Assembly (NCBI RefSeq): GCF_000400485.1
Contig: NZ_ASHR01000032.1
Location: 62,001 to 126,000 of the forward strand
Source: Agrococcus pavilionensis RW1
GTDB lineage: Bacteria; Actinomycetota; Actinomycetes; Actinomycetales; Microbacteriaceae
Reading direction: 5' to 3'
DNA length: 64,000 bases
The translations under genes were made by a program, and so were the position numbers. Position 1 is the stretch's first letter; each line of letters begins with the position of its first letter. The notes beneath the pieces were generated by a model. The model ran no database searches and was not told the DNA's origin. It saw nothing but the letters and a program-made list of their open reading frames with translations. Below are positions 6,602 to 63,102 of the stretch, one piece after another.

Positions 6602-6635
6602 GAAGTGCCCTTCTCGGTGGAATGGCACGGGTGCG

Positions 6636-6726
6636 TGTCCTCCCTGCGCTGGCATGATCCAGATCAGGTTTGACGGTCGAAGGCTTCAGCCTTCCTCTCA
6701 GCCCGGCGCACCGGACTCCCGTGTCG
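6636..6726 (-). promoter_or_regulatory. TPP (THI-box) riboswitch upstream of ykoE
   Basis: Read on the minus strand, this segment has the conserved THI-box blocks in order: the CTGAGA core (6701-6696), then ACCTGATCTGGATCATGCC (6669-6651) and the closing GCAGGGA block (about 6647-6641), with a variable stem carrying AAGGCTGAAGCCTT between the first two. It sits 35 nt before the ykoE ATG. It should bind thiamine pyrophosphate and turn off the operon, most likely by masking the ribosome-binding site because no clear terminator follows. Outer stem ends are approximate. Confidence 0.95.
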
Positions 6727-6765
6727 CCAGCCAGTCTAGCCGGGGCGCCGCGCGGGTGGCGCGCG

Positions 6766-28262: not shown

Positions 28263-30787
28263 GCGACGAGGCCGAGCTCGACCTCGGAGTCGAGCAACGG
28301 GTGCTGCGGCACGACGCGCACGGTGTAGCCGAAGGTGCCGGCGACCGGGAGCTGCACCTGCACCTCGAAGCGGTGCGCGTCGCCCTCGACCGCGATGGGC
28401 TCGAGCGCGTAGCGGCGCGTGCTGCGCAGCTCCCCCTCCTCGGTGATCCTGCCGGCGACGACCTCGACCTTGACGTCCGACTCCGCGATGCCGTCGAGCG
28501 CGACGTAGGCGCGCACGAGCACGGTGTCGCCGATGATCGGGGGTGTGTCGACCCCCTCGACCTCGACGTGGCGCACCTCGATGCGCCCGAACGACTCCCG
28601 CATCCGCCCCGTGAACGCCGCGAGCTCGCGCCCCGCCCGGTGGCCGTCGGCCGTCGCGAGCGCCGAGGCGCGCGCCGCCGGCGCGTAGAGCCGCGAGACG
28701 TACTCGGCGAGCATCCGCTCGGCCGAGAGCTCGGGGCTCAGGGTCGCGAGCGTGTGCCGGATCGACTCGATCCACGCGGTCGGCAGGCCGCGCTCGTCGC
28801 GCTCGTAGAAGCGCGGCGCGACCTGGTGCTCGATGATCTCGTAGAGCGCGTTGGCCTCGAACGCGTCGCGCTGCGCCGCATCCATCTGCTCGTGCGCCGA
28901 CGGGATCGCCCAGCCGTTCTTGCCGTCGAAGTACTCGTCCCACCAGCCGTCGAGGATCGACAGGTTGAGCGAGCCGTTGAGCGCCGCCTTCATGCCCGAC
29001 GTGCCGCACGCCTCGAGCGGCCGCAGCGGGTTGTTGAGCCACACGTCGCAGCCCGGGTAGAGCGACTTCGCCATCGAGATGTCGTAGTTCTCGAGGAAGA
29101 CGATGCGGCCGCGCACCTCGGGCTCCTGCGAGAAGCGCACGAGCTCCTGGATGAGGCCCTTGCCAGCCTCGTCGGCCGGGTGCGACTTGCCCGCGATGAT
29201 GAGCTGCACGGGGCGCTCGGGGTGCGTGAGCAGCGCCCGCAGGCGGTCGCGGTCGTGGAGCATGAGCGTGAGCCGCTTGTAGGTCGGCACGCGGCGCGCG
29301 AACCCGATCGTCAGCACGTCGGGGTCGAGCATCGCGTCGATCCAGCGCGGGGCGACGCCCTCGTTGCGCTCGTGCTTGACGCGCGTGCGGGCGCGCGCAT
29401 CCTCGATCGTCTGCCGGCGCATCTCGTTGCGCGCCGCCCAGATCGTCTCGTCCGAGACGGCGTCGGAGGCCCAGTCGCAGCGCGTCGTGTCGAGCGTGCC
29501 GAGCTCGCGCTCGGCGAGGTGCTTGAGCACGGGCGAGGTCCAGGTGGATGCGTGCACGCCGTTGGTCACGGACGTGATCGGCAGCTCGTCGGTGTCGAAG
29601 CCGGGCCAGCGGTCCTGGAACATCGATCGGCTCACGGCGCCGTGGAGCTTCGAGACGCCGTTCGCGCGCTGCGCGATCGAGAAGCCGAGCTGCGCCATGT
29701 TGAAGATGTTCGGGTCGCTCTCGCGGCCGAGCGCGAGCACGCGGTCGACGTCGATGCCGGGCACGAGCTCGCCCGTGAGGTGGCTGCGCACGAGCTCGAC
29801 GTCGAAGCGGTCGATGCCCGCGGGCACGGGCGTGTGGGTCGTGAAGACCGTGCCGGCGCGCACGACCGCGAGCGCCTCGTCGAAGCCGAGGCCCTCGCGC
29901 GAGATGAGCTGCGACATGCGCTCGACGCCGAGGAAGCCGGCGTGGCCCTCGTTCGAGTGGAAGACGCCCGGCCGCGGCGCGCCCGTGAGCTCGCTGTAGA
30001 CGTCGAGGGCGCGCACGCCGCCGATGCCGAGCAGCAGCTCCTGCTGCAGCCGGTGCTCGCCGCCGCCGCCGTAGAGCCGGTCGGCGACGCCGCGCAGGTC
30101 GTCGTCGTTCTCGTGGATGTTCGTGTCGAGCAGGAGGAGCGGCACGCGGCCGATCGTGGCCTGCCAGATGCGCGCGTGGAGCGTGCGGCCGCCGGGGAGC
30201 GCGATCGACACGGTCGCGTGCTCGCCGTCGGGGCGCCGCAGGATGGTGAGCGGCAGGCCGTCGGGATCGAGCACGGGGTAGGCCTCCTGCTGCCAGCCCT
30301 CGCGCGAGATCGCCTGCTTGAAGTAGCCGGCCTGGTAGAAGAGGCCGACGCCGACGATCGGCACCCCGAGGTCGCTCGCGGCCTTGAGGTGGTCGCCCGC
30401 GAGGATGCCGAGGCCGCCGGAGTACTGCGGCAGCGCGCTCGTGATGCCGAACTCGGGCGAGAAGTACGCGATCGACTCGGGCACGTCCTCGAGCGACTGG
30501 TACCAGCGCGCTTGCGACAGGTAGTCGTCGAGCTCGTCGGCGAGCGCGTCGACGCGGGCGACGAAGGCGTCGTCGGCGGCGAGCTGGCCCAGCCGCTCGG
30601 TGCCGACCCAGCCCAGCAGCTGCAGCGGGTCGTGCCCGGTCGCGCGCCAGCCCTCGAGCGAGATCTCGCGGAAGAGCTCGCGGGTCGGCTCGTGCCACGA
30701 CCAGCGCAGGTTCGAGGCCAGCTGCTCGAGGCGGCGCAGGCGCTCGGGGAGGGACGTGCGGACGGTGAACTTGCGAATCGCTCTCAC
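28247..30787 (-). CDS. glgP: Alpha-glucan phosphorylase (short GlgP type)
   Basis: An 846-residue GT35 enzyme releasing glucose-1-phosphate from alpha-glucan. It has the PLP-anchoring lysine in C-G-T-S-G-M-K-A-A-L-N-G, followed by D-G-W-W-D-E-Y-F, and H-S-N-E-G-H-A-G-F in the middle. The N-terminal D-U-F3417-like segment with L-R-W-S-W-H-E-P-T is typical of the TIGR02094 branch common in actinobacteria. GTG start at 30787; TAGGCT lies 8 nt upstream. Divergent from glgE over a 62-bp gap. Confidence 0.94.
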   Translation of the reverse strand: MRAIRKFTVRTSLPERLRRLEQLASNLRWSWHEPTRELFREISLEGWRATGHDPLQLLGWVGTERLGQLAADDAFVARVDALADELDDYLSQARWYQSLEDVPESIAYFSPEFGITSALPQYSGGLGILAGDHLKAASDLGVPIVGVGLFYQAGYFKQAISREGWQQEAYPVLDPDGLPLTILRRPDGEHATVSIALPGGRTLHARIWQATIGRVPLLLLDTNIHENDDDLRGVADRLYGGGGEHRLQQELLLGIGGVRALDVYSELTGAPRPGVFHSNEGHAGFLGVERMSQLISREGLGFDEALAVVRAGTVFTTHTPVPAGIDRFDVELVRSHLTGELVPGIDVDRVLALGRESDPNIFNMAQLGFSIAQRANGVSKLHGAVSRSMFQDRWPGFDTDELPITSVTNGVHASTWTSPVLKHLAERELGTLDTTRCDWASDAVSDETIWAARNEMRRQTIEDARARTRVKHERNEGVAPRWIDAMLDPDVLTIGFARRVPTYKRLTLMLHDRDRLRALLTHPERPVQLIIAGKSHPADEAGKGLIQELVRFSQEPEVRGRIVFLENYDISMAKSLYPGCDVWLNNPLRPLEACGTSGMKAALNGSLNLSILDGWWDEYFDGKNGWAIPSAHEQMDAAQRDAFEANALYEIIEHQVAPRFYERDERGLPTAWIESIRHTLATLSPELSAERMLAEYVSRLYAPAARASALATADGHRAGRELAAFTGRMRESFGRIEVRHVEVEGVDTPPIIGDTVLVRAYVALDGIAESDVKVEVVAGRITEEGELRSTRRYALEPIAVEGDAHRFEVQVQLPVAGTFGYTVRVVPQHPLLDSEVELGLVAYAKG

Positions 30788-30837
30788 GAGTCCAGAGCCT
30801 AGTCGGCGACTGTCCGCGCGCTTGCAGGAGCGATGGG

Positions 30838-30843
30838 TAGGTT
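30838..30843 (+). promoter_or_regulatory. -10 hexamer TAGGTT for glgE
   Basis: Exactly 6 nt separate this hexamer from the GTG at 30850, while the upstream in-frame GTG at 30844 touches it. The spacing seen elsewhere in the window therefore favours the 30850 start. Confidence 0.55.
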
Positions 30844-30849
30844 GTGCTC

Positions 30850-32853
30850 GTGGCGAAGCAGATGGATGTCCTGTCCGGCCGGATCCCGGTGCTCGACCTG
30901 TACCCGCAGCAGCCCGGGAACACGTTCCCCGCGAAGGCGGTGGAGGGCGACGTCATCCCGTTCCGCGCGGTCGCGTTCCGCGAGGGTCACGACCGCATCG
31001 GCGTGACGCTCGTGCTGCGCTCCCCCTCCGGGCGCGAGCGGCGCGTGCCGATGGAGCCGCTCGGCGACGGCTTCGACCGCTGGCAGGCGCTCGCGCAGGT
31101 CGACGAGCGCGGCACGTGGCGATGGCACGTCGAGGCCTGGGCCGACGAGTGGGCGACGTGGCACCACAACGCCGAGATCAAGATCCCGGCCGGCATCGAC
31201 ACCGAGCTCATGGCCACGATCGGCGCGCAGCTGCTGAGCCGCGCGGCGAAGGGCGCGACCGGGGCCGACGCTACGCTCCTCGCGGGCGCGGCGAAGGCGC
31301 TCGGCGACTCGCGCACACCCATCCTGCAGCGCTGGGCGTCCGTCAACGACCCCGACATCCTCGACGCGGTCGACCGCCACCGCCCGCGGTCGCTCGAGAC
31401 CGCATCCGCCGAGCTCGAGCTGCGCGTCGAGCGCACGCGCGCGGCCGTCGGCGCCTGGTACGAGTTCTTCCCGCGCTCCGAGGGCGCCGAGCGGCGCAGC
31501 GACGGCTCCTGGCGCTCCGGCACCTTCGAGACGGCCGCCAAGCGCCTGCCGGCCGTCAAGGCCATGGGCTTCGACGTGCTCTACCTGCCGCCCGTGCACC
31601 CGATCGGCGAGGTCAACCGCAAGGGCCGCAACAACACCCTCACGCCGCAGCCGGGCGACCCGGGCAGCCCGTGGGCGATCGGCTCGAAGCACGGCGGTCA
31701 CGACGCGATCCACCCGGACCTCGGCACGATCGACGACTTCCGCGCGTTCGTGGCGAAGGCGGCGGATGCCGGGCTCGAGGTCGCGATGGACCTCGCCCTC
31801 CAGGCCGCGCCCGACCACCCGTGGGTCACCGAGCATCCGGAGTGGTTCACGACCCTCCCCGACGGGTCGATCGCGTTCGCCGAGAACCCGCCGAAGAAGT
31901 ACCAGGACATCTACCCGATCAACTTCGACAACGACCCCGAGGGGATCGTCGCCGAGGTGCGGCGCATCCTCGACCAGTGGATCGCGTGCGGCGTGCGCAT
32001 CTTCCGCGTCGACAACCCGCACACGAAGCCGCTGTGGTTCTGGGAGCGCATCATCCGCGAGGTGAACGAGGAGCACGGCGACATCGTCTTCCTCGCCGAG
32101 GCGTTCACGCGGCCCGCGGTCATGCAGGCGCTCGGCAAGGTCGGCTTCCAGCAGTCGTACACGTACTTCGCGTGGCGGAACACGAAGGCAGAGCTCGAGG
32201 AGTACCTGCAGGAGGTCTCGGGCGAGCAGGCCGCGTGGTTCAAGCCCGCGTTCTGGGTCAACACGCCCGACATCCTCACCGAGTACCTGCAGTTCGGCGG
32301 CGTGCCGGCGTTCAAGGTGCGAGCGGCGATCGCCTCGACCGCGGTGCCGACGTGGGGCATGTACGCCGGCTACGAGCTCATCGAGGCGGTCGCGCGGCCC
32401 GGCGCCGAGGAGGCGATCGACAACGAGAAGTACGAGCTCAAGCCGCGCGACTGGGAGCAGGCGGAGCGCAACGGCACGACGATCGCGCCGTACATCACGC
32501 GGCTCAACGAGATCCGCGCGCAGCACCCCGCGATCCGGCAGCTGTGGGCGCTCGACGTGCACTGGTCGGACGACGACGCGATCCTCGTCTACTCGAAGCG
32601 CGTCGAGGGCCGCTTCACCGAGTCGGGCGAGGACGACACGATCATCGTGGTCGCGAACGTCGACCCGCACTCCGCGCGGCAGACGACGGTGCACCTCGAC
32701 CTGACGAAGCTCGGTCTCAAGCCCGGCGACCGGTTCGAGGCGCACGACCTCATCACCGGCGAGAGCTGGACGTGGAGCGACCACAACTTCGTGCGGCTCG
32801 ACGCCTTCGTCGAGCCGGCGCACATCATCCACGTACGACGATCGGAGGCATGA
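30850..32853 (+). CDS. glgE: Alpha-1,4-glucan:maltose-1-phosphate maltosyltransferase
   Basis: A 667-residue GH13_3 enzyme that elongates alpha-glucan with maltosyl units from maltose-1-phosphate. N-terminal beta-sandwich, then L-P-P-V-H-P-I-G near residue 245, the nucleophile in I-F-R-V-D-N-P-H-T-K-P, the acid in F-L-A-E-A-F-T-R-P, and a C-terminal beta domain. The R-V-D-N-P-H-T-K-P motif distinguishes GlgE from other amylases. No treS, pep2 or glgM is in the window, so the source of maltose-1-phosphate lies elsewhere. Overlaps glgB, giving a glgE-glgB operon. Confidence 0.95.
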   Translation: MAKQMDVLSGRIPVLDLYPQQPGNTFPAKAVEGDVIPFRAVAFREGHDRIGVTLVLRSPSGRERRVPMEPLGDGFDRWQALAQVDERGTWRWHVEAWADEWATWHHNAEIKIPAGIDTELMATIGAQLLSRAAKGATGADATLLAGAAKALGDSRTPILQRWASVNDPDILDAVDRHRPRSLETASAELELRVERTRAAVGAWYEFFPRSEGAERRSDGSWRSGTFETAAKRLPAVKAMGFDVLYLPPVHPIGEVNRKGRNNTLTPQPGDPGSPWAIGSKHGGHDAIHPDLGTIDDFRAFVAKAADAGLEVAMDLALQAAPDHPWVTEHPEWFTTLPDGSIAFAENPPKKYQDIYPINFDNDPEGIVAEVRRILDQWIACGVRIFRVDNPHTKPLWFWERIIREVNEEHGDIVFLAEAFTRPAVMQALGKVGFQQSYTYFAWRNTKAELEEYLQEVSGEQAAWFKPAFWVNTPDILTEYLQFGGVPAFKVRAAIASTAVPTWGMYAGYELIEAVARPGAEEAIDNEKYELKPRDWEQAERNGTTIAPYITRLNEIRAQHPAIRQLWALDVHWSDDDAILVYSKRVEGRFTESGEDDTIIVVANVDPHSARQTTVHLDLTKLGLKPGDRFEAHDLITGESWTWSDHNFVRLDAFVEPAHIIHVRRSEA

Positions 32854-35051
32854 TGCTCGACGACGCAACCCTCCGCCGCCTCGCCGAGGGCGCGCATCCG
32901 CTGCCCCACGACCTGCTGGGCGCGCATCCGATCGACGGCTCCACGCACCTCGTGCGGGCCGTGCGCCACCTCGCCGACGCCGTCGCGGTCGTGGGCGAGG
33001 CCGAGACGCCCATGGAGCACCTCGGGCACGGGGTGTGGGAGGCCACGGTGACCGGGCCCATCCGCCCGTACCGCCTGCGCACGACCTACGGCGACGGCGG
33101 CTCGTGGGAGTCGGAGGACCCGTACCGCTTCACGCCGACGCTCGGCGAGCTCGACCTGCACCTGTGGCGCGAGGGCCGGCACGAGCAGGCGTGGAAGGTG
33201 CTCGGCTCGCGGCTGCGCGAGCACGAGGGGGTGCGGGGCGCGGCGTTCGCCGTCTGGGCGCCGAACGCGCACGCCGTGCGCATCATCGGCGACTTCAACG
33301 ACTGGGTGGGCCGCGGTCACGCGATGCGCTCGATGGGCGCGAGCGGCGTGTGGGAGCTGTTCGTGCCGGGCGAGCTCGAGCACGCCGCCTACAAGTACGA
33401 GATCCTCACCGACCACGGCTGGGTGACGCGCGCCGACCCGATGGCGCGCTACACCGAGGTGCCGCCCGCGACCGCGTCGAAGGTCGGCATGAGCCGCTTC
33501 GCGTGGAGCGACGACGAGTGGATGCGGTCCCGGGCCGCGAGGGACCCCCACAACACCCCGATGTCGGTCTACGAGCTGCACTTCGGCTCCTGGCGGCCGG
33601 GCCTCGACTACCGCGAGATGGCCGATGCGCTCATCGAGCACCTCGAGGTGACGGGGTTCACGCACGTCGAGTTCATGCCGCTCGCCGAGCACCCCTTCGG
33701 TGGCTCGTGGGGCTACCAGGTGACCGGCTACTACGCGCCGACGAGCCGCTTCGGCCACCCCGACGACATGCGCTACCTCATCGACCGGCTGCACCGCGCC
33801 GGCTACGGCGTGATCATGGACTGGGTGCCGGGCCACTTCCCGAAGGACGAGTGGGCGCTCGCGCGCTTCGACGGCCGGCCGCTCTACGAGCACCCCGACC
33901 CGCGCCGCGGCGACCAGCCCGACTGGGGCACGCACGTGTTCGACTTCGGCCGGCCGGAGGTGAAGAACTTCCTCGTGGCGAACGCCGTCTACTGGATGGA
34001 GGAGTTCCACATCGACGGGCTGCGCGTCGACGCGGTCGCCTCGATGCTCTACCTCGACTACTCGCGCAAGGACGGCGAGTGGCTGCCGAACGTGCACGGC
34101 GGGCGCGAGCACCTCGAGGCGATCGCGCTGCTGCAGGAGGTCAACGCGACGGTCTACCGCCGCTGCCCCGGCATCGTCATGATCGCGGAGGAGTCGACCT
34201 CGTGGCCGGGCGTCACGAAGCCGACGGACGTCGACGGGCTCGGCTTCGGGCTCAAGTGGAACATGGGCTGGATGCACGACACGCTCCAGTACATGGCGGT
34301 CGATCCGATGTACCGCTCGCACCACCACGGCGACATCACGTTCTCGTTCCTCTACGCGTTCTCGGAGCAGTTCGTGCTCCCGATCAGCCACGACGAGGTC
34401 GTGCACGGCAAGGGCTCGCTGCTGAACAAGATGCCCGGCGATCAGTGGCAGAAGCTCGCCTCGGTGCGCGCCTACCTGACCTTCATGTGGGCGCACCCGG
34501 GCAAGCAGCTGCTGTTCATGGGGCAGGAGTTCGGGCAGCCGAGCGAGTGGAGCGAGGCGCGCGGCCTCGACTGGTGGATCCTCGACCAGCCGGTGCACCG
34601 CGGCCTCATGTCGCTCGTCGGGCAGCTCAACCGCGTCTACCGCGAGACCGAGGCGCTCTGGCTGCGCGACAACGAGCCGGGCGGATTCGAGTGGATCGAC
34701 GGCGGGAACTCCTCCGACAACGTCGTGGCATTCCTGCGCTGGGGCGCGGACCGCGACCCGGTCGCGGCGATCGTCAACTTCTCGGGCCGCCCGATCGAGG
34801 GCTACCGGATGGGGCTGCCGTTCGCGGGCGAGTGGGAGGAGGTCGTGAACTCCGACGCCGTCGAGTTCGGCGGCTCGGGGGTCGGCAACCTCGGCACCGT
34901 GCACGCGACCGACGAGCCGTGGGGCGGCCGCCCCGCGTCGGCGACGATCACGATCCCGCCGCTCGCTGGCCTGCTCCTGAAGCCGAAGGCTGCGCCCACC
35001 CCGGCGCCCGCCGCTGCGACGAGCGAGGTGACCGCCTCCCCCGCGAAGTGA
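32853..35051 (+). CDS. glgB: 1,4-alpha-glucan branching enzyme
   Basis: A 732-residue GH13_9 enzyme forming alpha-1,6 branches. N1 and CBM48 domains first (A-F-A-V-W-A-P-N-A, I-G-D-F-N-D-W), then V-P-G-H-F-P-K-D, the nucleophile in G-L-R-V-D-A-V-A-S-M-L-Y-L-D-Y, the acid in M-I-A-E-E-S-T and L-P-I-S-H-D-E-V-V-H-G-K. GGAGG sits 4 nt before the ATG at 32853; the overlapping ATG at 32850 is too close to it. The last ~20 residues form a low-complexity Ala/Pro tail, and the final codons plus stop resemble units of the adjacent repeat array. Confidence 0.95.
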   Translation: MLDDATLRRLAEGAHPLPHDLLGAHPIDGSTHLVRAVRHLADAVAVVGEAETPMEHLGHGVWEATVTGPIRPYRLRTTYGDGGSWESEDPYRFTPTLGELDLHLWREGRHEQAWKVLGSRLREHEGVRGAAFAVWAPNAHAVRIIGDFNDWVGRGHAMRSMGASGVWELFVPGELEHAAYKYEILTDHGWVTRADPMARYTEVPPATASKVGMSRFAWSDDEWMRSRAARDPHNTPMSVYELHFGSWRPGLDYREMADALIEHLEVTGFTHVEFMPLAEHPFGGSWGYQVTGYYAPTSRFGHPDDMRYLIDRLHRAGYGVIMDWVPGHFPKDEWALARFDGRPLYEHPDPRRGDQPDWGTHVFDFGRPEVKNFLVANAVYWMEEFHIDGLRVDAVASMLYLDYSRKDGEWLPNVHGGREHLEAIALLQEVNATVYRRCPGIVMIAEESTSWPGVTKPTDVDGLGFGLKWNMGWMHDTLQYMAVDPMYRSHHHGDITFSFLYAFSEQFVLPISHDEVVHGKGSLLNKMPGDQWQKLASVRAYLTFMWAHPGKQLLFMGQEFGQPSEWSEARGLDWWILDQPVHRGLMSLVGQLNRVYRETEALWLRDNEPGGFEWIDGGNSSDNVVAFLRWGADRDPVAAIVNFSGRPIEGYRMGLPFAGEWEEVVNSDAVEFGGSGVGNLGTVHATDEPWGGRPASATITIPPLAGLLLKPKAAPTPAPAAATSEVTASPAK

Positions 35052-35069
35052 CCGCCGCCTCCCGCGGCT

Positions 35070-35209
35070 GAGCGGTCATTCCCGCACGTGAGTGGCGCCT
35101 CCCGCGTTCGAGTGGCGCCGCTCGCGTCTGAGTGGCGCCTCCCGCATTCGAGTGGTCACTTCCGCGTCTGAGTGGTCACTTCCGCGTCTGAGTGGTCACT
35201 CCACGCGCG
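35070..35209 (+). repeat. 20-bp repeat array A, forward half (7 units)
   Basis: Seven head-to-tail units of exactly 20 nt, all beginning GAG(T/C)GG. Units 2-4 read GAGTGGCGCC-TCCCGC plus a variable end; units 5-7 read GAGTGGTCAC-TTCCGCGTCT or variants. Degenerate copies continue leftwards to and probably into the glgB 3' end (35025-35069). No coding potential is evident. Confidence 0.93.
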
Positions 35210-35260
35210 GACGGCCGAGCGCGAACGACCGCTCAAGTGCAGGCGTGACCGAGCCCATCC

Positions 35261-35420
35261 CGGACTGACCACTCACATCCCGGAGTGACCACTCACCTGC
35301 CGGAGTGACCACTCACCCGCGGGAGTGACCACTCACCTGCCGGAGGCGCCACTCACCTGCCGGAGGCGCCACTCACCTGCCGGAGGCGCCACTCACCTGC
35401 CGGAGGCGCCACTCGAGCCG
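35261..35420 (-). repeat. 20-bp repeat array A, inverted half (8 units)
   Basis: Eight 20-nt units in the opposite orientation. Four inner ones carry GTGACCACTC (35261-35340) and four outer ones are GGCGCCACTC forms (35341-35420), three of them identical over 20 nt. The order of the two subtypes mirrors the forward half, so like faces like around a ~50-bp degenerate centre (35210-35260). Together with the forward half it fills the 388-bp gap between the convergent glgB and thioredoxin-domain genes. Confidence 0.93.
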
Positions 35421-35439
35421 CAGCGGGCCGCGGCAGGCG

Positions 35440-36378
35440 TCAGTAGAGGAGGGCCGTGAGGCGCTTGCGGGCCGCGACGACGCGCGGGTCGTCGAGGCCG
35501 ACGATCTCGAAGTGGTCGAGGAGGCGCAGCCGCACGTCCTGCTTCTCGTCGCCCGAGAGCGTCGCCATGAGCTCGAGCAGCCGCAGGAACGCATCCTCGA
35601 CGTGCCCGCCCGAGAGGTCGAGATCGGCCGCGAGCATCTGCGCGTCGATGTCGCGCGGGTCCGCGGCCGCGGCCGCGCGCACCTCGTCGGCGCTCTTGCC
35701 CTGCAGGCGCGAGAGCAGGCTCACCTGCGCGAGGCCGGCGATCGCCTCGGCGTCGCGCGGGTTCTGCGCGATCGCCTTCTCGAACGCGGCGATCGCGGCC
35801 GGCAGGTCGCCGATCTCGAGCGCGTCGTACGCCTCCTGGTGCAGCGGCGGCACCGGCTCGGGCGCGGGCTCCGCGGGAGCCTCCTCGCCGTCGCCGACGG
35901 GGACGCGCCCCGTGATGCCCTGCTGCTCGGCGAACGCGAGCACCTGCTCGAGCACGTCCTTCACCTGCTCCTCCGGCAGCGCGCCGGTGAAGAGCGGCGC
36001 CGGCCGGCCCCCGATGACAGCCGCGACCGTCGGGATCGACTGCGCGTTGAACGCCTGCACGAGCTGCGGGTTGGCGTCGGCGTCGACCTTCGCGAGCACG
36101 AGGCGGCCGCCGTGGCCCTCGATGAGGCGCTCGAGCACGGGCGAGAGCTGCTTGCACGGCCCGCACCACTCGGCCCAGATGTCGATGATGACCGGCACGC
36201 GGTTCGAGAGCTCGACGACCTGCGCGAAGTCCGCGTCGGTGACGTCGATGATCGCGCTCGGCACCCCTCCGGGCGCTCCGCCGCTCGCGGGCGCGGCCGC
36301 TGGCTGCTCGTGGCGGGCGGCGAGGGCCGACAGGTCGACCGCTCCCCCCATCGACGCTGGCAGTCGAGCCTCCGACAT
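35440..36378 (-). CDS. Thioredoxin-domain protein with TPR tail (CnoX/YbbN-like co-chaperone)
   Basis: A 312-residue cytoplasmic protein. After a ~45-residue linker comes a thioredoxin fold with I-I-D-I-W-A-E-W-C-G-P-C-K-Q (CxxC intact) and S-I-P-T-V (cis-Pro), then an Ala/Pro/Glu linker and a C-terminal TPR-like helical region (E-A-Y-D-A-L-E-I-G-D-L-P-A-A-I-A-A-F-E-K-A). This is the YbbN/CnoX architecture, a holdase that protects proteins from oxidation in other bacteria. The ATG overlaps the preceding gene's stop by one base. Confidence 0.86.
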   Translation of the reverse strand: MSEARLPASMGGAVDLSALAARHEQPAAAPASGGAPGGVPSAIIDVTDADFAQVVELSNRVPVIIDIWAEWCGPCKQLSPVLERLIEGHGGRLVLAKVDADANPQLVQAFNAQSIPTVAAVIGGRPAPLFTGALPEEQVKDVLEQVLAFAEQQGITGRVPVGDGEEAPAEPAPEPVPPLHQEAYDALEIGDLPAAIAAFEKAIAQNPRDAEAIAGLAQVSLLSRLQGKSADEVRAAAAADPRDIDAQMLAADLDLSGGHVEDAFLRLLELMATLSGDEKQDVRLRLLDHFEIVGLDDPRVVAARKRLTALLY

Positions 36379-38315
36379 CACTGGACCTCCCTTGCGCTGA
36401 CGAGCGACTGGCTGTAGCCGACGACCTGGATCTGCGTGCCCTCCGGCGCATCGGCCGGCGGCACCGAGAAGAGCACCTGGATCTGGTAGGTCGTCTCGAT
36501 CCCGGTGTCGGACTGCTGCACCCCCGCGAGGATGCCTGCGCCGGCCTGCGCCTCGATCTCGACGCCGCTCTCCGTCGGCGTCGTGCGCTGCGTCTCGAGG
36601 AACGACGTCGCGAGCAGCGCGCCGCCCTCGTTCGTGACGAGCAGCATCGGCGCCTGCTCGTCCTCGGCGACGCTCCACTCGAGGTTCGAGAGCTCGAACT
36701 CGGGCAGCGCGCGCATCGCGTCCTTCGCGGGACGGCCGATCTCGGCGCGAAGCGCATCGCCCTCCTCGCGGAACCACGCGTTGTACTGCGAATCGGTGCC
36801 GTTCAGGATGACGTCGGCGTACGCCCCCGTGATCTCGTTCGGCTGGTGCAGCAGCAGCGGGGTGTCGCCCGGCAGGCTCGCGGCGCCGATCGTCGGGCTC
36901 GCGACGGCCGGCAGCTGCACGCCCGAGGCGAGCGTCGTCATGTAGACGAGCCGGTAGTTCGAGCGCGCGTCGGGCTGCTGGAACATGAGCGCCGACTGCG
37001 CCTGCGCGCCGTCCTGCCAGCCGACGACGGCCATGACCGAGCGCGGCCACACCTCCGTCTGCTGCGGCAGCAGCAGCTCGACGTCGCCGTCCGGGATCCC
37101 GGGCGCCTCGGCGAGCTCGGCGTTCTGCGCGCGCACCTGGTAGTTCGTCCTGCGGGCCTCGAGCATCGGGCCCGCGAGCCGGCGCTCGGCGATCGCGGCG
37201 TCGAGCGCCGCGTCGGCCTCGGCGACCGTCTCGCGCGTCGACTCGAGCACGCGGTCGAACTGGTTCTCCGTGAGCGCGACGGGCGGCAGCGTCTCCTCGA
37301 GCGTCGACGGCGTCGGGGCGTCCGTCGGGGCGGCCTCCGACTCGCCGCCCGGCCAGTACTGCGGCCCGCAGCCCGTGAGGCCGACGATCGCGACGACGGG
37401 CAGCGCGACGAGGCCGAAGCGGCTGCGGCGCGAGCGCGTCCCGCGGCGCTCGCGCGTGCCCGACTCGCGCCCGGGGGCGTCGGGGGCGGATGCGGTCCCG
37501 GGCTCGGGAGCGGATGCCGCGGCATCCGGCTCGGAGGGCGTGGCCGACGCGGCGTCCTCGCCTGCCGGCGCCGACGCATCCGCCTCGATCGCACCCTGCT
37601 CACCCGCGCGGGAGGGCGAGATCGGCTTCGCGGGCAGCGGCAGCCCCTGCTGCGCCTCGCGGCGCAGCGCGCGGCGCTCGGCGCGCGAGAGCTCGCGGTG
37701 GCTGCGGCGCTGCGGGCCGCGACGGCGGCGGTGGTGGCGGAGCGCGAGCAGCAGGAACAGCAGCGCGAGCGCGAGGAAGACGAGCCCGGCGGTGATGAGC
37801 GGGCCGAACAGCGGCGTCTTCGCGTCGAACGGCCACGCGACGCCGATCGCGGCGGGCGCGGCCTCGCCGGGCGCGCCGGTGATGGCGACCGCGAAGCCGA
37901 CCGGCAGGTCGATCGTGAGCTCGAGCGATCCCTCGCCCTGCGCCTCCTCGATCCACATGTCGCTGCCGGCGATCGCGGGCAGCGGCTCCTCGTCGCCGCG
38001 CTGCTCGTCGAGCACGAGCGCGTCGGTCTCGTCGACGCTCGCGATGGCGTGGGCGCTCTCGCCCACCCAGCCCTCGACGTCGTGCGCGCGCCCGACGACC
38101 GCGGTGATGGGTCCGTCGCCCTCGACGGTGAGCGTCTGCACGCCGTCGTGCGCGTTCATGGCCTCGCCCGGGATGACGACGACCTGCGACTCGGGGGGCT
38201 CCTGCAGCTGCGCGACGATCGTCTCCGGCGGCGCCCAGATCGTGCGCTGCCCGATGCCGAGGCCGAGCAGCACGAGCGAGATCACGAGGCTCACGGCCGC
38301 GAGGATGTATCGCAC
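36378..38315 (-). CDS. Large envelope-associated protein, two-part, function unknown
   Basis: A 645-residue protein. Part 1: a transmembrane segment at residues 3-22, an extracytoplasmic ~145-residue region, a second membrane segment at ~170-192, then a strongly basic cytoplasmic stretch and an Ala/Pro/Glu-rich linker. Part 2: a hydrophobic segment at ~300-315 ending in an L-T-G-C, reminiscent of a lipobox but internal, followed by a ~325-residue extracellular domain. I do not recognise a family. AAAGGACCT precedes the GTG start. It is coupled to the thioredoxin/TPR gene, so a redox or envelope-stress link is possible but unproven. Confidence 0.7.
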   Translation of the reverse strand: MRYILAAVSLVISLVLLGLGIGQRTIWAPPETIVAQLQEPPESQVVVIPGEAMNAHDGVQTLTVEGDGPITAVVGRAHDVEGWVGESAHAIASVDETDALVLDEQRGDEEPLPAIAGSDMWIEEAQGEGSLELTIDLPVGFAVAITGAPGEAAPAAIGVAWPFDAKTPLFGPLITAGLVFLALALLFLLLALRHHRRRRGPQRRSHRELSRAERRALRREAQQGLPLPAKPISPSRAGEQGAIEADASAPAGEDAASATPSEPDAAASAPEPGTASAPDAPGRESGTRERRGTRSRRSRFGLVALPVVAIVGLTGCGPQYWPGGESEAAPTDAPTPSTLEETLPPVALTENQFDRVLESTRETVAEADAALDAAIAERRLAGPMLEARRTNYQVRAQNAELAEAPGIPDGDVELLLPQQTEVWPRSVMAVVGWQDGAQAQSALMFQQPDARSNYRLVYMTTLASGVQLPAVASPTIGAASLPGDTPLLLHQPNEITGAYADVILNGTDSQYNAWFREEGDALRAEIGRPAKDAMRALPEFELSNLEWSVAEDEQAPMLLVTNEGGALLATSFLETQRTTPTESGVEIEAQAGAGILAGVQQSDTGIETTYQIQVLFSVPPADAPEGTQIQVVGYSQSLVSAREVQ

Positions 38316-38481
38316 GGGTCAGAGGTCCTTTCACGCTCGCCGCGGGATGCGGCGGGCCGTCCGGCCGGACGACGCAGAGCAGGCAAGCCTCCAGGGTACC
38401 GACGCACCCTGGGTGCTGCCAAGCCCGCCCCTGCGCCGTCCCGGCCGCGCGCCGTGCAGGGAGCAGGCCCGGGCGTCCGCC

Positions 38482-38487
38482 TAGGAT
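38482..38487 (+). promoter_or_regulatory. -10 hexamer TAGGAT for leaderless AI-2E family gene
   Basis: Six nucleotides upstream of the GTG at 38494; no ribosome-binding site between. Confidence 0.55.
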
Positions 38488-38493
38488 TCGGAT

Positions 38494-39561
38494 GTGAAGA
38501 TCCGCAACGCCTTCGTGCTCGGCCTGCTCGGCGGCCTCGGCGTGCTCCTCGCCATCGCCATCGGCGCCGCGGTGCAGCAGATCGGCACCGTGCTCGTGTG
38601 GGCCTTCGCGGGCATCTTCCTCGCGCTCGGCCTCGAGCCGGTCATCCAGTTCCTCATCCGCCGCCGCGTGCCGCGCTGGGCGGCCGTGCTGCTGATCTTC
38701 ATCGTGATCGTCGCGGCCCTCGTGGGCGCCGGCTGGCTCATCGTGCCGACGATCATCGCGCAGTTCTCGCTGCTCGTGCAGGCGATCGTGCAGGAGGTCG
38801 AGAGCGGGCTGCTCGACAGCGTGCTCGACTGGGTGCGCGAGACGTTCCCGGCGTTCGACGTCGACGGCACCCTCGACCAGCTCGGCGGCGCGCTCACCGA
38901 CTTCAACACCTGGTCGTCGCTGCCCCCGTGGATGGCGGAGGTGGTCGGCTCGATCGTCGCGAGCATCGGGCAGGTCGCGTTCGCGATCGGCGGCGGGCTC
39001 ATCGTCGTCGTGCTCATGCTCTACTTCACGGGCTCGCTGCCGGCCATCAAGTCGGGCATGTACCGCCTCGTGCCGGCGTCGTCGCGGCCGAAGTTCATCG
39101 AGATCGCCGAGCAGATCATGAAGTCGGTCGGGCGCTTCGTGCTCGGGCAGGGCGCCCTCGGGCTGCTGAACGGCACGCTCTCGCTCATCGTGCTCTCGAT
39201 CGTCGGCTCCGAGCTCGCGGGCGTCTACGCCTTCATCGCGCTCATCGCCTCGACCATCCCGCTCGTCGGCACCATCACCGCATCCGTCGTCATCTCGTTG
39301 CTCGTGCTGCTGCTCGACGGTCCGCAGACGGCGCTGCCGGTCGCGATCTGGTACCTCGTCTACATGCAGCTCGAGGCGTACGTCATCAGCCCGCAGGTCA
39401 TGAACCGCGCGGTGAAGGTGCCGGGCGTCGTGGTCGTGCTCGCGGCCCTCACGGGCGGCACGCTGCTCGGCATCCTCGGCGCGCTCGTCGCGATCCCGGT
39501 CGCCGCGGCGATCCAGCTGATCCTGAAGGAAGTCGTGATCCCGAAGCAGGACCTCAAGTAG
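38494..39561 (+). CDS. AI-2E family transporter (PerM/TqsA-like permease)
   Basis: A 355-residue membrane protein with about seven to eight hydrophobic helices and a soluble segment around residues 90-145. Family landmarks near the C-terminus are A-S-T-I-P-L-V-G-T, Y-L-V-Y-M-Q-L-E-A-Y-V-I-S-P-Q-V-M-N-R-A-V-K-V-P and L-A-A-L-T-G-G-T-L-L-G-I-L-G-A-L-V-A-I-P. Despite the name, most members are not autoinducer exporters and some act as Na+/H+ antiporters. GTG start supported by the TAGGAT hexamer. Confidence 0.9.
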   Translation: MKIRNAFVLGLLGGLGVLLAIAIGAAVQQIGTVLVWAFAGIFLALGLEPVIQFLIRRRVPRWAAVLLIFIVIVAALVGAGWLIVPTIIAQFSLLVQAIVQEVESGLLDSVLDWVRETFPAFDVDGTLDQLGGALTDFNTWSSLPPWMAEVVGSIVASIGQVAFAIGGGLIVVVLMLYFTGSLPAIKSGMYRLVPASSRPKFIEIAEQIMKSVGRFVLGQGALGLLNGTLSLIVLSIVGSELAGVYAFIALIASTIPLVGTITASVVISLLVLLLDGPQTALPVAIWYLVYMQLEAYVISPQVMNRAVKVPGVVVVLAALTGGTLLGILGALVAIPVAAAIQLILKEVVIPKQDLK

Positions 39562-39562
39562 C

Positions 39563-39850
39563 TCAGGCGGCGCGCCAGCAGCCGGTGTGCCAGTGGCGCC
39601 GATCCTCGATCGCCCGCTCGCCGAAGATCGAGTCGGCGCGCCAGACGACGACGTGCGCGGTGCCGGCCGTGACGGACTGGCCGCAGCCGGGGCACGAGTA
39701 GTCCTTCACCGCGGCGTGCGCGGCCATCGGCTGCACGTGCCACTCCCCGCCCGCGCGGCGCTCGACGCGCCGCACGCCCTGCATGAGCCGCTCGACGTCG
39801 AGCGGCACGTGCTCGGTGGCGCGGCGACGGGACGGCCGCCGCGACGGCAT
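39563..39850 (-). CDS. Small zinc-ribbon-like protein
   Basis: A 95-residue protein: basic N-terminus, then Y-S-C-P-G-C-G-Q-S-V near residue 58 and R-R-H-W-H-T-G-C-W at the end, giving a C-x2-C ... H-x2-(G)-C metal-site pattern. Homologues in actinobacteria are often labelled ATP/GTP-binding protein, but no P-loop is present here. Function unknown. The ATG overlaps the lytic transglycosylase stop by one base. Convergent with the permease gene, with 1 nt between. Confidence 0.75.
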   Translation of the reverse strand: MPSRRPSRRRATEHVPLDVERLMQGVRRVERRAGGEWHVQPMAAHAAVKDYSCPGCGQSVTAGTAHVVVWRADSIFGERAIEDRRHWHTGCWRAA

Positions 39851-40506
39851 CAGTACCAGCCGACCCGCTGCGAGTGGCCCCAGGCGCCGCACGGGGTGCC
39901 GTAGCGGCCCGAGATGTAGCCGAGGCCCCACGTGATCTGCGTCACGGGGTTCGTCTGCCAGTCGGCGCCGGCCGAGGCCATCTTCGATCCGGGCAGCGAC
40001 TGCGGGATGCCGTACGCGCCGCTCGAGCGGTTCTGCGCGTAGACGTTCCAGTTCGACTCCTTCTGCCACAGCGAGTAGAGGCAGGAGTACTGGTCCTCGC
40101 CCCAGCCGCGGGCGAGCACCATCTGGCGCGCGATCGCCTGCGCGGAGCCGGGATCGGGCGCGGCGACCGCGGGGATCGGCAGCGCGGCGCGAGCCGCCGT
40201 GCCGCCGCTCGAGGCGGCAGCGGGTGCGGCCGCGACGGGCGCGGGCTCGGGGGTCGGGGTGGGCGTCGGGGTGTGCACGACGATCGTGTCGCGGACGAGC
40301 GACGCCTGCTCGCCCGTGACCTCGCCGAGCGCCTGCCCCGGTCGCGGCTCGCTCAGCAGCGTCGCCGGCTCGGCGGCGACCTGCGCGCCGGGGGTCGCGG
40401 CGACGGAGACGAGCACGAAGCCCGCGGCGGCGACGAGCGAGACGCCCGAGAGCACGCCGCGAGTGCGCGTCGAGCGCGCGGAAGCGGTGGCAGATCGGGT
40501 GAACAC
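39850..40506 (-). CDS. Secreted lytic transglycosylase-like (SLT/Rpf-type) protein
   Basis: About 218 residues: basic N-terminus and hydrophobic signal segment (V-L-S-G-V-S-L-V-A-A-A-G-F-V-L-V-S-V-A), a Thr/Pro/Ala linker, then a C-terminal lysozyme-like domain with L-W-x-K-E-S-N-W (catalytic Glu), S-S-G-A-Y-G-I-P-Q-S and I-T-W-G-L-G-Y-I-S-G-R-Y-G-T-P. Two Cys may form a disulfide. It should cleave peptidoglycan outside the cell. The frame can also start at the GTG at 40524, which would run through the inverted repeat upstream. Start uncertain. Confidence 0.86.
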   Translation of the reverse strand: MFTRSATASARSTRTRGVLSGVSLVAAAGFVLVSVAATPGAQVAAEPATLLSEPRPGQALGEVTGEQASLVRDTIVVHTPTPTPTPEPAPVAAAPAAASSGGTAARAALPIPAVAAPDPGSAQAIARQMVLARGWGEDQYSCLYSLWQKESNWNVYAQNRSSGAYGIPQSLPGSKMASAGADWQTNPVTQITWGLGYISGRYGTPCGAWGHSQRVGWY

Positions 40507-62870: not shown

Positions 62871-63050
62871 GAGCGGCGGCTCCCGCGCCTGAGTGGCGGC
62901 TCCCGCACCCGAGTGGCGGCTTCCGCACCTGAGTGGCGGCTCCCGCACATGAGTGGCGGCTCCCGCACATGAGTGGCGGCTCCCGCACGTGAGTGGCGGC
63001 TCCCGCACGTGAGTGGCGGCTTCCGCACGTGAGTGGCGAATCTCCGCGTG
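62871..63050 (+). repeat. 20-bp repeat array B, forward half (8 units plus one degenerate)
   Basis: Nine 20-nt blocks in perfect register from 62871. Units 2-8 share GAGTGGCGGC followed by T(C/T)CCGCAC and two variable bases; units 4 and 5 are identical, as are 6 and 7. Unit 9 (63031-63050) has lost the pattern after GAGTGGCG. The core is the same as in array A (35070-35420), 27 kb away. Confidence 0.93.
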
Positions 63051-63102
63051 CGGCGCCACTCACCCGCCGCAGGCGCCACTCACCCGCCGCAGGCGCCACT
63101 CG
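63051..63102 (-). repeat. 20-bp repeat array B, inverted half (3 cores)
   Basis: Three GGCGCCACTC cores 20 nt apart, reading GAGTGGCGCC on the minus strand as in array A. The internal units run GAGTGGCGCCTGCGGCGGGT. The half stops 15 nt short of the end of the NAD(P)-binding gene. As in array A, the two halves face each other between convergent genes. Confidence 0.9.

Follow-up and report, generated by a model that had tools for sequence, protein, structure and literature searches.

The window analysed in this study is a stretch of 64,000 nucleotides from Agrococcus pavilionensis RW1 (G000:C32:62001-126000, G000 being that genome), and positions are window coordinates unless a contig is named. 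In the gap between the convergent glgB and thioredoxin genes it holds array A, a block of 20-nt units belonging to a dispersed family of arrays; on another contig, arms of this family enclose a gene for a DUF559/Vsr-like nuclease, and the primary concern here is how arrays and nuclease are related. Array A consists of seven forward and eight inverted units in exact register, as the first-pass annotation of this DNA had described, with the inverted arm placed as in Table 1. The forward cores start at 35070 (GAGCGG) and at 35090, 35110, 35130, 35150, 35170, and 35190 (all GAGTGG), with subtypes in the order TCAT, three CGCC, and three TCAC; the inverted cores (CCACTC) end at 35274, 35294, 35314, 35334, 35354, 35374, 35394, and 35414. 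The mirrored subtype order that had been noticed earlier, CGCC outside and TCAC inside, is present at array A, the first unit (TCAT type) excepted, and at the glgB/thioredoxin junction of G265 and G308, but it is not general: loci L133 and L128 differ. The 20-mers run head-to-tail with no CRISPR-like unique spacers, and a scan of the whole window gave no Rfam family matching the arrays at the gathering threshold, in keeping with the earlier statements that this is not a CRISPR and that no named repeat family with this unit is known. A terminator-like scan of positions 30000-40000 found none (shuffles 1.4).

The unit of the family is 20 nt long, with a conserved head, GA(G/N)(T/C)GG(C/T)N, and a variable tail. 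Exact GAGTGG-N14-GAGTGG pairs number 36+32 in the 2.88-Mb G000 genome versus 0+0 in the congener G119, an excess far beyond chance, as had been supposed; the backwards pattern, used as a control, also gives matches in array genomes (7+17 in G000), because array units hold the reversed motif too. Eleven array loci of G000 were retrieved, and among the 747 unit-to-unit steps of the 72 loci studied, 718 are exactly 20 nt, with up to 16 units per arm. The two-unit pattern matched 39 stretches in a collection of 84,980 species, 34 of them Agrococcus records; the five loci from elsewhere, with one match each, were dropped before counts were made. In 299 genomes of Microbacteriaceae, the pair pattern reaches at most five copies per genome outside Agrococcus. 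Exact GAGTGG triplet arrays, the pattern by which absence was judged, are found in 16 of 24 Agrococcus genomes, two of which have few (G301 one, G316 four). Copies occur genome-wide and between predicted genes, overlapping them by at most 22 bp; genes were called by a codon-usage predictor, not taken from annotation. Arrays are often at the contig ends of drafts (L096, L105, L108, L119, and L125; G223:C5 and C7; G299:C5, C7, and C16), so that drafts probably understate both the length and the number of arrays. In another Microbacteriaceae genus (L169 in G050 and L178 in G120), a TTCGACAAGCTCAGGGACCG repeat passes straight into GAGTGG 20-mers between predicted convergent genes, and an independent origin of such arrays is possible there. 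As a literature search term, the letters of the 20-nt unit matched only primate papers on the major histocompatibility complex.

At two-arm junctions the forward arm is on the left and the inverted arm on the right, heads inward, in 33 of 33 cases; single stray heads of opposite polarity were seen at L133 and L134. The same plan of + arm, centre, and - arm occurs with a gene in place of the centre at G000:C1:16171-17671, where both arm types enclose the gene for the nuclease, a solitary protein of approximately 296 amino acids, with a thioesterase and an ANTAR response regulator as neighbours. Pfam places DUF559 above cut-off in the C-terminal part and REase_MTES_1575 below cut-off, the latter described as a Vsr-fold domain (PMC3710099; here, as for every paper cited, in excerpt). 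The N-terminal part is guessed to be a DNA-binding winged helix. Residues E192, D224, E235, H241, and D250, the acidic and His/Asp residues of the PD-(D/E)XK-like core, are invariant in nine sequences and have a putative catalytic role. A one-piece ortholog (61-100% identity) is present in 15 of the 16 array genomes, the other being G301, whose ortholog is broken into two pieces with a stop inside; the eight genomes without exact arrays have no one-piece ortholog (0/8) and best matches of 32-55%. The nuclease junction was grouped by flanking genes in nine genomes, and the others have neighbours of similar size and orientation. A right - arm stands beside the gene in 16 of 16 array genomes and a left + arm in 15 of 16, each of its own genome's unit type.

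The association with a private repeat extends to relatives of the nuclease. Paralogs of 30-55% identity are found at other places or, in more distantly related species, at the nuclease junction itself, and other repeats or hairpins flank most of them. In a flank-sharing test, 350 bp on the left were compared with 350 bp on the right, a pass being above the 97.5th percentile of controls. A repeat shared by both flanks was found for 36 of 48 Agrococcus family genes, and for 21 of the 33 among them with less than 60% identity; the controls gave 2/56, matched controls with intergenic space on both sides 0/24, and other genes beside an array 0/32. Outside Agrococcus, 10 of 26 loci pass versus 0 of 49 shifted controls, after L286 (short flank) and L297 (no open reading frame) were dropped. 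Among named records, Arthrobacter and Tsukamurella pass (3/3 each), with three different repeats in one Tsukamurella strain, and none of eight other genes in these records passes. Two of the flank hairpins are dispersed in a plasmid collection, in counts where a palindrome can count twice: one of Tsukamurella at 20 places in 8 records, all Tsukamurella, and one of Arthrobacter at 11 places in 2 records of one strain. Agrococcus itself has a second pair: the 20-bp palindrome GCAGAGTKCCGGMACTCTGC lies at the flanks of a paralog in G265 and G308 and is dispersed in 3 of 24 genomes (14 copies in G000, 18 in G265, and 20 in G308; control 0), often in 40-bp steps. As an exact 16-mer, GATTGGTCACTTCTGC is not dispersed, its 3 copies all bounding homologs in G304 and G307. 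Three genomes of one genus in another family (G354, G390, and G412) have 10 to 12 DUF559/Vsr-like matches each; the tested copy, one per genome, has no above-threshold flank repeat. One nuclease homolog was found in a phage record.

Array A is thus probably, though by no means surely, a non-autonomous member of a dispersed family that resembles repetitive extragenic palindromic (REP) sequences and miniature inverted-repeat transposable elements (MITEs), served by the Vsr-like nuclease, which would mobilise it. Counting for this reading are the plan shared by loci with and without the gene, the joint occurrence of ortholog and exact arrays, the repeats at the flanks of family genes within and outside Agrococcus, the second pair, the weak match to a mobile-intron protein, and the lack of RAYT transposase genes in all 24 genomes. 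An element with arm ends is proposed because the gene is enclosed, the repeats are private, and the polarity is fixed: the two arms would be the ends of the element, and array-only loci would be copies without the gene, as in MITEs or REPINs (REP doublets forming hairpins). The nuclease would recognise its own repeat type and nick or cut it; repair copying would lengthen the arms as tandem 20-mers and would seed new arrays in tolerated space behind genes. That the enzyme spreads the repeats is favoured over its riding in them because genomes without the ortholog also have no exact arrays. Of the three roles offered by the first-pass annotation, the selfish repeat comes close to this reading.

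Several observations weigh against an element mobilised by the nuclease. Across 16 genomes, the arms next to the gene and the dispersed arrays vary together in unit type (permutation p=5e-5), which counts in favour of such an element, but this p ignores phylogeny and 6 of the 16 genomes have one dispersed arm; more generally, the genomes are related, and 16:8 represents far fewer independent events. Of the genomes counted as array-free, G303 and G304 hold variant arrays, made of GATTGG or GACTGG units, next to the homologs they carry, and G301 has GAGCGG arrays that the exact GAGTGG pattern missed. G119 and G312 look like losses, with moderate support from the tree, and G312 is 65% complete. 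The gene looks vertically inherited because it is mostly at one conserved junction; no instance of movement was observed, though target-site duplications were not searched for. The left + arm is missing in G311, where a - chain stands instead, and the left arm of G223 also has two short - chains. Matches to solved structures are weak and the AlphaFold model is poor (predicted local distance difference test 39.8). The 48 genes of the flank-sharing test are a non-random choice from 98 match rows (28 search loci and 20 picked by hand, the broken G301 copy being left out), and no above-threshold flank repeat was found for 12 of these 48, for 16 of the 26 loci outside the genus, for Nonomuraea (1), or for E. 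coli YcjD (1). One copy of a Tsukamurella repeat lies under an annotated gene. G000 holds GCAGAGTKCCGGMACTCTGC, the GCAGAG repeat, yet no such paralog was found there; the repeat is perhaps orphaned in this genome.

The nearest solved chains, both weak matches, are an endonuclease-like protein and a "Mobile intron protein", 3r3p (E=0.0054), which we take to be the EDxHD homing endonuclease I-Bth0305I. This similarity to a mobile-intron endonuclease, weak as it is, would suit a different account, in which the repeats have their own origin or function, and a parasite of homing type, the nuclease gene, has inserted in its recognition repeats; the enclosed gene and the paralog-specific flanks fit a gene inside its own target. 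Such a passenger is nevertheless unlikely, as it leaves unexplained both the absence of exact-unit arrays where the ortholog is absent or replaced and the different repeats of paralogs, and array-only loci outnumber the gene locus. The comparison with EDxHD enzymes is divided: the gene lies inside a presumed recognition repeat, but there is no sign of an intron or intein and the repeat is dispersed at many gene-free loci. The target of I-Bth0305I is nearly 60 bp long (PMC3943268).

Gene context bears on the possibility that each arm is a directional 3'-end device under selection, such as the transcription barrier or protein-binding array also offered by the first-pass annotation, with the nuclease link secondary. 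The array junctions number 78, with 41 convergent, 27 co-directional, 2 divergent, and 8 unclear. They bear 18 genome labels, two of which, HG114 and sediminis, may stand for genomes that also have a G number; the run that classified them misplaced L131, whose left neighbour was + in an earlier prediction, and missed a + gene at L151 that is visible by eye in the sequence, both left uncorrected. The junctions form 46 orthologous groups (24 convergent, 19 co-directional, 2 divergent, and 1 unclear), and convergent junctions are favoured, at 24 of 45 classified groups versus 46 of 323 background junctions (p=2e-8). Gene ends facing an arm that reads away from the gene number 91, versus 21 facing the back of an arm, and 18 of 20 single arms at co-directional junctions follow a gene; nine of the 18 come from the nuclease locus of different species, and L131 is the misplaced call. 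Positions 7-8 of the unit, unused in detection, vary less within arms than positions 9-20, and array A as a whole has a strong predicted RNA fold (z=-12.3; single arms -3.3 and -1.4). All of this would suit a host device, but a strict rule of one arm per gene 3' end fails where co-directional and divergent junctions hold two-arm arrays, and at L215, a reversed single arm. The two divergent junctions (L091 and L227) also count against a host device; the arms have no C>G excess, unlike a classical Rho site, which speaks against a Rho-type site; and a preference for 3' ends is shared by REPs in general (PMC3733652). A hairpin of -16 kcal or below precedes the array at 21 of the 91 gene ends with away-reading arms versus 10 of the 21 with back-facing arms, a comparison confounded by length. 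Arrays lie directly after tRNA-Tyr in two species (L116 and L220) and beside the tmRNA gene in one (L103).

The junction of array A itself is also a poor fit to a conserved host device. Among 23 genomes compared (G306, a partial match of only 38%, was dropped), the array is present at the glgB/thioredoxin junction in four (G000, G265, G308, and G305), and G312 has a degenerate relative in one of two junction copies. The other 18 have no such array; where their GlgB alignment ends, the thioredoxin stop is 2 to 560 bp away, and only 2-8 bp away in four of them. Some array-free junctions hold hairpins, other palindromes, or an extra gene. The array has therefore been gained and lost, is needed by neither gene, and is not a fixed part of this junction. 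Together with the pairing of facing arms described below, this makes a selected 3'-end device quite improbable. Palindromic repeats ending in CTCGACC or GGTCTCG were seen at the same junction in G299, G301, G309, G119, and G314, and like repeats in L131 near 2880-2920; by the flank-repeat rule these may have a nuclease of their own.

The arms were also compared with one another, excluding those with fewer than three units from likeness comparisons and the logo, fewer than two from the arm-swap test, and fewer than four from the duplex-energy test. Likeness over the 14 non-core positions is 0.73 for units within an arm, 0.60 for arms of different loci, and 0.57 for facing arms, and within arms it falls with the distance between units. 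Close facing arms (spacer <400 bp) are less alike than arms swapped within the genome (0.552 vs 0.578, p=0.0008, n=31), 27 of 32 falling below their own swap reference, and the predicted duplex energy for four units is -103 kcal facing versus -108 kcal swapped, with 0.9% of swaps as weak. Growth by foldback or mirror copying, which had been read from the mirrored order of array A, is not supported by these comparisons; a long RNA hairpin as the functional unit fares no better, since despite the strong fold the complementarity of close facing arms is below that of swapped arms. As likeness is greater within arms than between facing arms, each arm homogenises by itself while close facing arms avoid a perfect hairpin; long palindromes are unstable, and this avoidance fits. 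The six pairs with arms approximately 1 kb apart all come from the nuclease locus of different species, and spacing cannot be separated from locus in them: they are predicted to pair more strongly, and among the five for which a reference exists, four are at least as alike as other loci and one is less alike. A neutral minisatellite, with 20-mers grown by slippage where space allows and neither enzyme nor function, would accord with within-arm homogenisation, the decay of likeness with unit distance, and the gain or loss of arrays at glgB, but it is very improbable, as slippage by itself accounts neither for arrays dispersed with a fixed inward polarity nor for the nuclease gene between arms, and it is already disfavoured by the repeats that flank family nucleases outside the genus.

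REP-like repeats are common in bacteria, and the arrays are REP-like in general terms: short, dispersed, intergenic, in inverted pairs, and near 3' ends. With GTAG REPs, bacterial interspersed mosaic elements (BIMEs), and REPtrons they share short palindrome-forming sequences, intergenic location, frequent inverted pairing, and a position mostly at 3' ends, and the nuclease locus is like a REPtron in that an enzyme gene is flanked on both sides by its own repeat. However, the REPtron enzyme is a RAYT (Y1 HUH) transposase, whereas the enzyme here is a DUF559/Vsr-like nuclease of another superfamily; nor is the GTAG tag found at the units, which begin with GA(G/N)(T/C)GG and are tandem 20-mers in exact register. 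RAYT (Y1 transposase, PF01797) was found in 0 of 24 Agrococcus genomes by a search that was positive in 5 of 14 named control genomes, which rules it out as the enzyme of the arrays. REPINs and MITEs are inverted two-arm copies without a gene, their enzyme being encoded elsewhere, and array A is like them as a two-arm copy that lacks the gene and would be served from another locus; REPINs have single-REP arms, while here the arms are tandem arrays and close facing arms are kept unlike. Both array-bearing and array-free glgB sites were seen across species, and no clean footprint was sought.

CGTC REPs are reported without a dedicated transposase and unassociated with transposase genes, only GTAG REPs being tied to an enzyme, the RAYT (PMC3733652). 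They resemble the arrays in their bias to convergent and unidirectional junctions, but have another unit, and the CGTC tag was not found in the units here; the excerpted account makes no statement on DUF559. The TAACTGA repeats of Beggiatoaceae are short intergenic direct repeats of unknown role (PMC4679880); they differ from the 20-nt arrays in having 7-nt units mostly just upstream of start codons, and in the excerpt only one indirect repeat is reported and no nuclease partner is named. In the main text of the RepRanger paper (PMC12306157), the words transposase and endonuclease occur 0 times. No paper joining DUF559 with "inverted repeat" was found in the open literature searched, which most subscription journals lie outside, and by title none of the 14 papers there with DUF559 is on REPs, nor does any title among the first 12 of 78 and the first 12 of 29 listed matches link Vsr-like enzymes to REPs. 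The array and nuclease system works like a REPtron, but differs from the kind that has been described. It is conceivable, and is offered only tentatively, that REP systems without RAYT exist across Actinomycetota, in which solitary DUF559/Vsr-like nucleases, often present as several paralogs in one genome and each with a private, palindromic flanking repeat dispersed in its lineage only, would drive spread by nicking and copying as well as the growth of arrays. If true, REP-like repeats to which no enzyme has been assigned would gain one. A DUF559 nuclease enclosed by its own repeat and matched to it would give a testable role to an unassigned repeat class and to a protein family that has been little studied, and the Agrococcus arrays would be a convenient model, as they present the presumed recognition site up to 16 times per arm.

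Table 1. Features of arrays A and B and of the genes beside array A, in window coordinates.
Feature	Position	Strand	Description
Array A, forward arm	35070..35209	+	7 units of 20 nt
Array A, centre between arms	35210..35254	.	Degenerate inverted units
Array A, inverted arm	35255..35414	-	8 units, exact core; TCAC inside, CGCC outside
Approximately two degenerate period-20 copies spanning the glgB end	35023..35066	+	Tandem Repeats Finder (TRF), period 20, 2.1 copies
glgB, 733 aa, convergent neighbour	32850..35051, stop 35049-35051	+	Gene prediction; Pfam GlgB_N, CBM_48, Alpha-amylase_C
Thioredoxin + TPR protein gene, convergent neighbour	35440..36351, stop 35440-35442	-	Gene prediction; Pfam Thioredoxin, TPR_20
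Array B, forward arm	62871..63050	+	9 units, CGGC subtype, first core GAGCGG
Array B, inverted arm	63042..63101	-	3 units, CGCC subtype; first unit overlaps last forward unit

Array B (62871-63101) has the same plan as array A and lies between a GNAT gene and the gene for an NAD(P)-binding protein. Although degenerate period-20 copies span the end of glgB, an array origin of the GlgB C-terminal tail is not supported, because the GlgB of G174 and G307, congeners without an array there, also aligns to the last residue. The thioredoxin/TPR neighbour of array A is presumably CnoX-like. In G303 and G307, an extra small gene, which by eye we assume to be of a DinB/mycothiol-dependent family, seems to fill the 520-560 bp of the glgB/thioredoxin gap. 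The sole Rfam match of the window at the gathering threshold is a TPP riboswitch (RF00059) at 6623-6732 (-), with 56 bits.

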